A stretch of DNA of 40,286 nucleotides from a bacterium (GTDB taxonomy: Bacteria; Patescibacteriota; Minisyncoccia; Sungbacterales; HO2-52-23). The stretch is from NCBI GenBank assembly GCA_030697705.1, contig JAUYPE010000024.1, positions 1-40,286 on the forward strand, given 5' to 3'. Numbering within the stretch: position 1 is the first letter of the stretch; every line of letters starts with the position of its first letter. The notes beneath the pieces are model-generated. The model made no database searches, was not told the origin of the DNA, and saw nothing but the letters and a program-made list of their open reading frames with translations. The position numbers and the translations under genes are program-made. This document shows, piece after piece, positions 1,555-32,743 of the stretch.

Positions 1555-2220
1555 CTAAATTTGCTGCATTACCGCATTAATCCATCCGGCAATTCTTCTA
1601 TGAGAACTTTTGAGACAAAAATCAGCATCTCTTTTCCTCACAGACAGACCAACTGTTCCATAAGGCAGTTTTCCATGTTTTAACGGAGATTTATCGGTTC
1701 TCCTGTCTATGACCACTTTCCCAAACTGACTAAGCGGAAATTGTAGCTCTTCTGACCAAAAACCAATAGCTTCTCCGGGGTCCGTATCGGGATAGCCATG
1801 CACGGTTATCTGAAAATTTTTTATTGAAAATCCCATAGATTCGCGCAACCATTTTATACATAGCTTCAAGATTTTTGGGTCAGCATTTACGACTCTTATT
1901 TCTTCCGTTGCCTTTGATCCTTCTCCAAGGTAAAGCCCGATACCCAACATGAACAAATCCCTAGGGGTAAGCGTACCGACTTCAGTCATACCTTGATTTT
2001 TCATCTTTTCAATATCAGCAAATTTTACATTTTGCTTATGTAGGGCTGATTTTAGTCTTGCTGTGCCTATTCTTTCTATCACCTCTTGATTTGGTACAAA
2101 TTTAATGTCGGTCAGCCAATTGCTCAAGGTACTTTTTGAGACACCAATTTTCTCCTTTATCATTCCATAGGAATAACCAGCTATTCTTAGATCTATTGCC
2201 TCTCTTCTATATGGATTCAT
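1555..2220 (-). CDS. HTH plus LAGLIDADG-like protein (solo homing-endonuclease-like or regulator)
   Basis: N-terminal HTH (SYGMIKEKIGVSKSTLSNWL) and LAGLIDADG-like motif (LFMLGIGLYLGEGSK). Confidence 0.6.
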   Translation of the reverse strand: MNPYRREAIDLRIAGYSYGMIKEKIGVSKSTLSNWLTDIKFVPNQEVIERIGTARLKSALHKQNVKFADIEKMKNQGMTEVGTLTPRDLFMLGIGLYLGEGSKATEEIRVVNADPKILKLCIKWLRESMGFSIKNFQITVHGYPDTDPGEAIGFWSEELQFPLSQFGKVVIDRRTDKSPLKHGKLPYGTVGLSVRKRDADFCLKSSHRRIAGWINAVMQQI

Positions 2221-2287
2221 CTACCATATTATAATAATATACACGTGAAGGTTCAATTTAGTTATCCACAATTTAATATTGAATGAT

Positions 2288-2354
2288 CGGAGCGCCGGGA
2301 ATCGCCAGCCCAAGGCTGGTCCGCCTCGGGCGGAAACCCGGTCCTCGTGTACCC
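2288..2354 (-). pseudogene. Decayed tRNA-Pro 3'-part copy interrupted by a 30-bp double hairpin
   Basis: cggagcgccgggaatcg / aacccggtcctcgtgtaccc match the adjacent tRNA-Pro, split at 2305-2334. Confidence 0.85.
2305..2334. repeat. 30-bp double-hairpin palindrome (ccagcc-caa-ggctgg-tccgcc-tcg-ggcgga)
   Basis: Two consecutive 6-3-6 perfect hairpins; same architecture as 32696-32725. Confidence 0.9.
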
Positions 2355-2375: not shown

Positions 2376-2446
2376 TCGGAGCGCCGGGAATCGAACCCGG
2401 TCCTCGTGTACCCAAAACACGCATACTGCCGGTATACTACGCTCCG
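2376..2446 (-). tRNA. tRNA-Pro(TGG)
   Basis: Acceptor CGGAGCG/CGCTCCG, anticodon stem-loop CGTGT-TTTGGGT-ACACG, T-arm CCGGGTTCGATTCCCGG. Confidence 0.92.
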
Positions 2447-3283: not shown

Positions 3284-3333
3284 GGGCATTGCAGGGATCG
3301 AACTTCTGACCTTTCCGATGTGAACGGAGCGCT
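3284..3333 (-). pseudogene. tRNA-Val 3'-half fragment
   Basis: ggatcgaacttctgacctttccgatgtgaacgga identical to the adjacent intact tRNA-Val; 5' half lost. Confidence 0.85.
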
Positions 3334-20201: not shown

Positions 20202-20341
20202 GTCATTCCGAGTGGAATGACTGCCAATAGGCGTCCCGTGAGGGAGGAGTCCCGTCAACATGCGGTATGCTGAAATCGTGCGGGATTCTTCGTCCGCCCT
20301 GGGCGCCACGCCCGCCGGCGGGCGGGGACTCTGAATGACGG
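20202..20341. repeat. R1 dispersed palindromic repeat copy carrying a GC-rich palindrome (20293-20328)
   Basis: gtcattccgagtgg...gggattcttcg[insert]ctctgaatgacgg. Confidence 0.75.
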
Positions 20342-32513: not shown

Positions 32514-32564
32514 TCAACGGCACGACTTCAAATTTATATTTGACGGCGAGGAAGAAATAAGAAT

Positions 32565-32636
32565 GGGCACATAGCTCAATGGTAGAGCAGTCGTCTTATA
32601 CACGACCGGTTCTAGGTTCGAATCCTAGTGTGCCCA
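32565..32636 (+). tRNA. tRNA-Ile(TAT)
   Basis: GGGCACA/TGTGCCC acceptor, anticodon arm GTCGT-CTTATAC-ACGAC, T-arm CTAGGTTCGAATCCTAG. Confidence 0.88.
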
Positions 32637-32649
32637 TTCTTATTTCGAC

Positions 32650-32743
32650 CGAGTGAGCCGATTATATCATTGGTATACCTCGGCGGTTCTAGGTTTCCGC
32701 CCAAGGCGGATCCGCCTCCGGCGGACGAATCCTAGCGCACCCA
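32650..32743 (+). pseudogene. Decayed tRNA copy lacking the anticodon arm, T-loop interrupted by a 30-bp double hairpin
   Basis: D-arm-like TATATCATTGGTATA, then ggttctaggtt / cgaatcctagcgcaccca split at 32696-32725. Confidence 0.8.
32696..32725. repeat. 30-bp double-hairpin palindrome (tccgcc-caa-ggcgga-tccgcc-tcc-ggcgga)
   Basis: Two consecutive 6-3-6 perfect hairpins; same architecture as 2305-2334. Confidence 0.9.

Follow-up and report, generated by a model that had tools for sequence, protein, structure and literature searches.

An apparently mobile 30-bp double-hairpin micro-element in tRNA loops and protein genes of a Sungbacterales bacterium

A 30-bp palindromic insert in the T-loop of a tRNA-Pro fragment is one member of a dispersed, multi-copy family of palindromic micro-elements. 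The family is apparently mobile, and the insert is best explained, with a probability of about three in four, as a non-autonomous element that is mobilized in trans and that entered the T-loop of the redundant fragment precisely.

Two double hairpins in T-loops of the window

The window, that is, the whole stretch of DNA that was analyzed (40,286 nucleotides), contains an intact tRNA-Pro gene and, 21 bp from it, a partial copy holding 38 bp of the 3' part of the gene. A second interrupted tRNA remnant is present, and an uninterrupted one serves for comparison. The features are as follows:

2287 to 2304, minus strand: partial tRNA-Pro copy, positions 54 to 71 of the 71-nt gene (C56 to the discriminator base), 18/18 identity
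2305 to 2334, no strand: 30-bp double-hairpin element, hairpins 2305 to 2319 and 2320 to 2334, at the T-loop site GGTT^CGA (sequence, repeat and hairpin scans; family member)
2335 to 2354, minus strand: partial tRNA-Pro copy, positions 34 to 53 of the 71-nt gene (anticodon loop to T54-T55), 20/20 identity
2355 to 2375, minus strand: 21-nt linker from the intact tRNA-Pro to the partial copy (sequence)
2376 to 2446, minus strand: intact tRNA-Pro(TGG), the internal empty-site reference (ARAGORN; Rfam tRNA, E = 7e-10)
3295 to 3333, minus strand: tRNA-Val(CAC) 3' remnant lacking the element, used for comparison (blastn, 97% over 39 nt)
32564 to 32637, plus strand: intact tRNA-Ile(TAT), upstream of the second copy (ARAGORN)
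32684 to 32695, plus strand: tRNA-Ile remnant, 5' side of the T-arm, 12 nt identical up to GGTT (sequence comparison)
32696 to 32725, no strand: second 30-bp double-hairpin element, TCCGCCCAAGGCGGA TCCGCCTCCGGCGGA, at the T-loop site GGTT^CGA (hairpin scan)
32726 to 32743, plus strand: tRNA-Ile remnant, 3' T-stem strand and acceptor strand, 15/18 nt identical to the intact gene

The insert at 2305 to 2334 reads CCAGCC-CAA-GGCTGG-TCCGCC-TCG-GGCGGA and consists of exactly 30 bp forming two perfect 6-3-6 hairpins. Sequence comparison and a direct-repeat search revealed that its flanks repeat the intact gene, 2287 to 2304 matching 2376 to 2393 at 18 of 18 positions and 2335 to 2354 matching 2394 to 2413 at 20 of 20. 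Against the intact gene (38/38 identical) the junction is unambiguous, with neither target duplication nor deletion, and in tRNA orientation it falls in the T-loop between positions 55 and 56. This bears out the sequence-only reading, which had described a partial tRNA-Pro copy beside the intact gene, split by a 30-bp double hairpin between GGTT and CGA of the T-loop, with no obvious target duplication. Its description of the copy as decayed has to be replaced, as the copy is truncated: its first base lies in the anticodon loop, and all of its 38 nt match the intact gene.

When the window was scanned for neighboring hairpins with perfect 6-bp stems, only two double hairpins were retrieved, at 2305 to 2334 and 32696 to 32725. 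The second breaks the T-loop of a tRNA-Ile remnant at GGTT^CGA, as does the first, and this interrupted remnant lies 58 nt past tRNA-Ile. No GIY-YIG gene adjoins either window copy. Elsewhere in this genome, tRNA remnants free of the element were found for tRNA-Val (twice) and tRNA-Phe.

Two further features of the window were recorded. Paralogous HTH proteins are encoded at 1630 to 2220 (minus strand) and at G000:C13:3949-4521, with weak similarity to the LAGLIDADG enzyme I-DmoI (E = 0.34); each gene lies directly after a tRNA and a 3' tRNA remnant, and before tRNA-Gly. A longer dispersed repeat of the type GTCATCC...CCCGCCGGCGGGCGGG...GGATCC occurs in many copies (window position 20311; G000:C10:17596, C16:4296, C17:15106, C17:17084, C21:15945, C23:5605, and C27:8584) and is apparently unrelated to the 30-mer.

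Size, structure and target of the family

The genome to which the window belongs (858,288 bases in 30 contigs) contains 26 TCCGCC-N3-GGCGGA units, compared with 0 for the reversed control pattern, and approximately 13 double hairpins when near-perfect ones are counted. This excess over the control, together with the second window copy at an equal T-loop site, shows that the double hairpin is not a product of chance. The general pattern detected copies in 17 of 39 relatives, with a maximum of 17 in one genome, and the reversed control is always 0; inside the window's own family the copy number runs from 17 down to 0. The further copies implied by the sequence-only reading of a minimal hairpin element are therefore present, both in this genome and in its relatives. 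A stricter pattern that includes the T-loop flanks gave 17 matches in 10 of the 388 genomes of the class, and exact T-loop insertions were retrieved at 46 further loci in GTDB genomes, spanning many CPR lineages, Omnitrophota, Planctomycetota, Lentisphaerales, and Melainabacteria. Viral contigs gave 0 matches to the T-loop pattern and 1 to the unrestricted pattern, and phage was rejected as a vehicle on these counts. Exact-sequence and keyword literature searches, with subscription journals mostly outside their coverage, retrieved no description of the 30-bp element in CPR.

The consensus of the element is YCMGCC-NRA-GGCKGR followed by YCMGCC-TYN-GGCKGR. Among 127 distinct copies, pair 1-15 is Watson-Crick in 97% (63% expected if the two sides were independent) and pair 3-13 in 99% (68% expected). 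The free 30-mer RNA has a strong fold and is best folded as one long hairpin. The two stems differ in most copies, however, and there the local 6-3-6 pairs hold in 97%, whereas the pairs of a long hairpin hold in 33%. The single long hairpin was therefore rejected as a model, and the conserved form is that of two separate hairpins. Watson-Crick pairing between the loops of the two hairpins showed no excess over shuffles. Because the first loop is NRA and the second TYN, the element takes the same form when read from either strand. At four loci of G004 (L113, L118, L120, and L123), the 30-mer is carried by a longer repeat, GGCTTA[element]AAATA(AAGCC)..., and in 3 of these 4 copies it is located within the loop of a GGCTT/AAGCC stem.

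Symmetrized flanks have T at positions −3 and −2 in 75% and 89% of cases, respectively, and AA at +2 and +3, which gives a target of TTN^NAA; the D-loop insertions described below do not fit TTNNAA. Empty sites show that the 30-bp gain is precise and without target duplication in tRNA-Pro, leuS, and trpS, and the comparison of occupied and empty sites in relatives, as proposed from the sequence alone, thus returned clean 30-bp gains in both protein genes. The leuS gene reads TTTT[30]GAAGAACC here and TTTT^GA(A/G)GA(A/G)CC in G004, G007, and G009. The trpS site is empty in relatives, for example GGAATT^AATCC in G004 versus GGCATC[30]AATCC here, and the best-matching solved TrpS aligns with a gap of exactly 10 residues at the insert. 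At the same leuS site, G012 carries a 60-bp double hairpin (L241, 1438 to 1497) with loops of 24 and 15 nt, one of which contains a hairpin, and its congener G009 is empty. This site was therefore hit independently, or the insert was lost. A larger parent element with long loops was considered and set aside, since a non-exhaustive scan retrieved only isolated variants such as that of G012 leuS. Location of the non-tRNA sites in hairpin loops was not significant (25% versus 18%, p = 0.09 to 0.22), so a structural target is not general. The earlier proposal of a structural or sequence target thus stands for its sequence part, as the TTN^NAA preference, and gains an excess in tRNA loops (next section), whereas general structural targeting is not supported. 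The sequence-only reading had missed the second window copy, the in-frame insertions in essential genes, the use of three tRNA loops, and the GIY-YIG cassettes behind such tRNA remnants in related genomes.

In-frame copies are located in this genome in the genes of DnaG, TrpS, a PGI/PMI-like isomerase, and LeuS (names from sequence reading, and for TrpS also from the match to a solved TrpS). Among the copies in long open reading frames, 23 of 28 are in phase 0, compared with a phase distribution of 106:90:71 for the TTNNAA sites of the same frames. In this phase the insert encodes (S/P)AxGGSAxGG, a ten-residue flexible linker, and purifying selection is the simplest explanation of the bias to this phase.

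The paired hairpins, precise insertion, and lack of a target duplication also agree with the single-strand chemistry of Y1 transposases, and the element could be REPIN- or PATE-like, moved by a RAYT or an IS200/IS605-type Y1 enzyme, with the hairpins as left and right ends and no gene between them. REPINs are paired REP hairpins that are tied to RAYTs and form a replicating unit with no gene inside (PMC3116915), and Y1-family genes were found in 25 of 39 relatives and twice in this genome. Several observations make this explanation unlikely. A TCCGCC-type hairpin was present at 0 of the 9 Y1 loci examined, several of which carry other palindromes instead; Y1 genes are present in 13 of the 17 carriers but also in 12 of the 22 non-carriers; and no Y1 match was obtained in G017, G028, or G033, which are near-complete carriers. 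The identical form on both strands, without a fixed cleavage tetranucleotide at the end, points in the same direction. No full-length parent with the same ends was found at the Y1 loci examined or in a non-exhaustive long-loop scan. In the arrangement of its hairpins, two of them in a reverse-complement symmetric form, the 30-bp element may resemble REPINs, but it shows no RAYT linkage at the Y1 loci examined, is much shorter, and inserts inside coding genes and tRNA loops. Like the IS200/IS605-derived MITE PATE, it inserts without target duplication (tRNA-Pro, leuS, and trpS).

Excess in tRNA loops and the probable source of the remnants

In an unbiased sample of 76 copies, a tRNA-like sequence spans the insertion point of 12. 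Among 2448 control TTNNAA sites taken from these sequences, 5 lie in such a context, which gives an odds ratio of 92 (p = 1.3e-15). Inspection revealed several more copies at sites with weaker tRNA similarity. Three tRNA loops are used: the T-loop (T55^C56), the anticodon loop (for example, CTGTT^AAG of tRNA-Asn and TCTTG^AAAA of tRNA-Ser), and the border of the D-loop (tRNA-Ser and tRNA-Tyr). A tRNA-Pro remnant at L177 has elements in both its D loop and its T loop. The hexamer GTTC(A/G)A occurs 572 times in this genome, and the three occupied T-loop sites all lie within tRNA remnants. Of 9 such remnants, 3 are thus occupied, whereas none of the 78 remaining intergenic GTTCRA sites (p = 8e-4) and none of the 530 non-tRNA sites (p = 3e-6) is. 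The hexamer alone thus fails to explain the tRNA excess. Survivorship could be partly behind it, spare tRNA fragments being neutral; a fair control for this effect is provided by the intergenic GTTCRA sites outside tRNA remnants. The preference of further copies for GGTT^CGA T-loop sites, which had been predicted from the first window copy, is upheld by the comparisons with control TTNNAA sites and with intergenic hexamers. Other palindromes, for example CCTGCCTGCCGGCAGGCAGG and TCCGCTC..GAGCGGA pairs, are present in the D or T arms of remnants beside GIY-YIG genes (L207, L229, L210, L216, and L232), and tRNA remnants may be general sinks for palindromes.

Most T-loop copies sit approximately 40 nt past an intact tRNA on the same strand. 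Their 3' homology to the tRNA end is often 18/18, and the 5' homology barely exceeds the T-stem. At L181 (4951 to 5123), three tandem 68-bp units each comprise a tRNA-Met 3' end, a linker, a T-stem, and the element. Small GIY-YIG genes (Pfam PF01541) were found in 121 of 144 genomes. In related genomes, an intact tRNA lies no more than 150 nt away at 13 of 19 GIY-YIG loci, and the cassette breaks a tRNA gene while a copied tRNA part leaves one gene intact. The layout of L146 is tRNA-Glu, T-loop, GIY-YIG open reading frame, and then GGGTT[element]CAAATCCCGGTAGGGCC; that of L115 and L148 is a tRNA-Ser 5' half, the element in the anticodon loop, a GIY-YIG open reading frame, and an intact tRNA-Ser. 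Cassettes of this kind in D, anticodon, or T loops were recorded at L146, L138, L148, L115, L090, L208, L221, L227, and L229 and are seemingly widespread in CPR genomes. Phage T4 SegB is a free-standing GIY-YIG homing endonuclease whose gene is associated with tRNA genes (PMC2988022). The GIY-YIG cassettes beside many tRNA remnants resemble it, a likeness that concerns the source of remnants in related genomes and not the 30-bp element. We infer that the remnants arise via duplication or GIY-YIG cassettes and then take up the hairpin element.

The proximity of intact tRNAs to GIY-YIG loci, and the position of the hairpin pair at the junction of tRNA remnant and GIY-YIG open reading frame in L146, L138, L148, L115, and L090, would also be expected if the double hairpin were the end or scar of homing-type cassettes that enter tRNA loops. 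This has a low probability, however. The locus L227 has the layout of L115 and L148 without any hairpin, so cassettes do not require the hairpin; at L208, L221, and L210 the remnant encloses the hairpins, which are off the cassette border; the majority of copies are located in protein genes or intergenic sites; and G025, with six copies, lacks any gene of the GIY-YIG family.

The regular placement of most T-loop copies some 40 nt after a same-strand intact tRNA, T-stem pairs that are often kept, and strong folding would suit a functional RNA module (terminator, processing signal, or decoy) composed of the T-arm and the double hairpin and selected downstream of tRNA genes. Such a role is very improbable, since most copies of the family are away from tRNAs, the same insert is in frame in leuS, trpS, and dnaG, a conserved linker or U-tract was not seen, and remnants without the element exist. 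De novo formation of the palindrome by template switching as a tRNA copy decays, which the sequence-only reading had offered as an option and which fits an insert in a non-functional tRNA copy, is refuted by the recurrence of the 30-mer family across unrelated sites, genomes, and phyla, including leuS, trpS, dnaG, and intergenic sites.

Proposed mobilization and comparison with known systems

Under the preferred reading, that of a palindromic element mobilized in trans, copies would spread via a strand-transfer reaction that recognizes the two hairpins and joins them between TTN and NAA. Because there is no target duplication, the hairpins would most naturally be recognized as single-stranded or cruciform DNA; the single-strand DNA route as such is a tentative proposal with odds short of even. 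Two points speak against the reading: no transposition was seen among strains of a single species, and the element showed no linkage to a mobilizing gene. Genes for tRNAs would be hot targets because their loop sequences fit the target and are loops, with the T-loop GTTC(A/G)A matching and the anticodon and D loops doing so less exactly. Hits in a functional tRNA gene would be lethal, and therefore only those in spare fragments would survive. Such fragments could stem from duplication or from GIY-YIG-type cassettes that insert in tRNA genes, the intact gene being restored alongside; a GIY-YIG gene would not be required, given the copies in G025. It is also conceivable, but rather unlikely, that a cross-phylum, trans-mobilized 30-nt DNA element has tRNA loops as its proper integration sites, recognizes a loop plus TT^CRA, and is moved by the same machinery, perhaps the tRNA-targeting GIY-YIG cassettes. 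If so, it would be among the smallest site-specific mobile elements known.

Among known systems, the Rickettsia palindromic elements (RPEs) are dispersed palindromes that insert in frame into conserved protein genes, where the protein tolerates them, and that also occur within RNA genes (tmRNA and RNase P RNA) (PMC2229807). RPEs were described from Rickettsia and have 105 to 146 bp with terminal inverted repeats. Like them, the 30-bp element is in frame in conserved genes (dnaG, trpS, pgi/pmi-like, and leuS), with its strong bias to phase 0. In contrast to them, it has 30 bp in two adjacent 6-3-6 hairpins, occurs in CPR, Omnitrophota, and other phyla, and has a TTNNAA target and an excess in tRNA loops. 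The element works like RPEs but fails their definitions of size, sequence, and host.

In the part of their description considered here, fungal mitochondrial double-hairpin elements (DHEs) are short, GC-rich double hairpins that are potentially mobile, with intergenic and rRNA-gene sites and identical copies across species (PMC10085805). The 30-bp element, likened to them by that description and not by sequence, also has two adjacent GC-rich hairpins, many copies, and intergenic and RNA-gene sites. On the same partial description, DHEs differ in being mitochondrial, whereas in-frame coding insertions and tRNA-loop targeting belong to the 30-bp element. It works like DHEs, a resemblance that does not establish kinship. 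The small dispersed repeats (SDRs) of Nostoc are cyanobacterial sequences of 21 to 27 nt that keep their structure by compensatory changes and are thought to be mobile. The structure of the 30-bp element is likewise kept by compensatory change, a likeness of form and not a kinship of sequence.

The means by which RPEs, DHEs, SDRs, and other palindromic elements spread have long been an open question. The 30-bp family has a defined target, known empty sites, a fixed structure, a strong excess in tRNA loops, and copies in many genomes, and it makes the mechanism of mobilization directly testable. The element also explains odd tRNA-like fragments in the annotation of ultra-small bacteria, and it adds flexible linkers to their essential enzymes.
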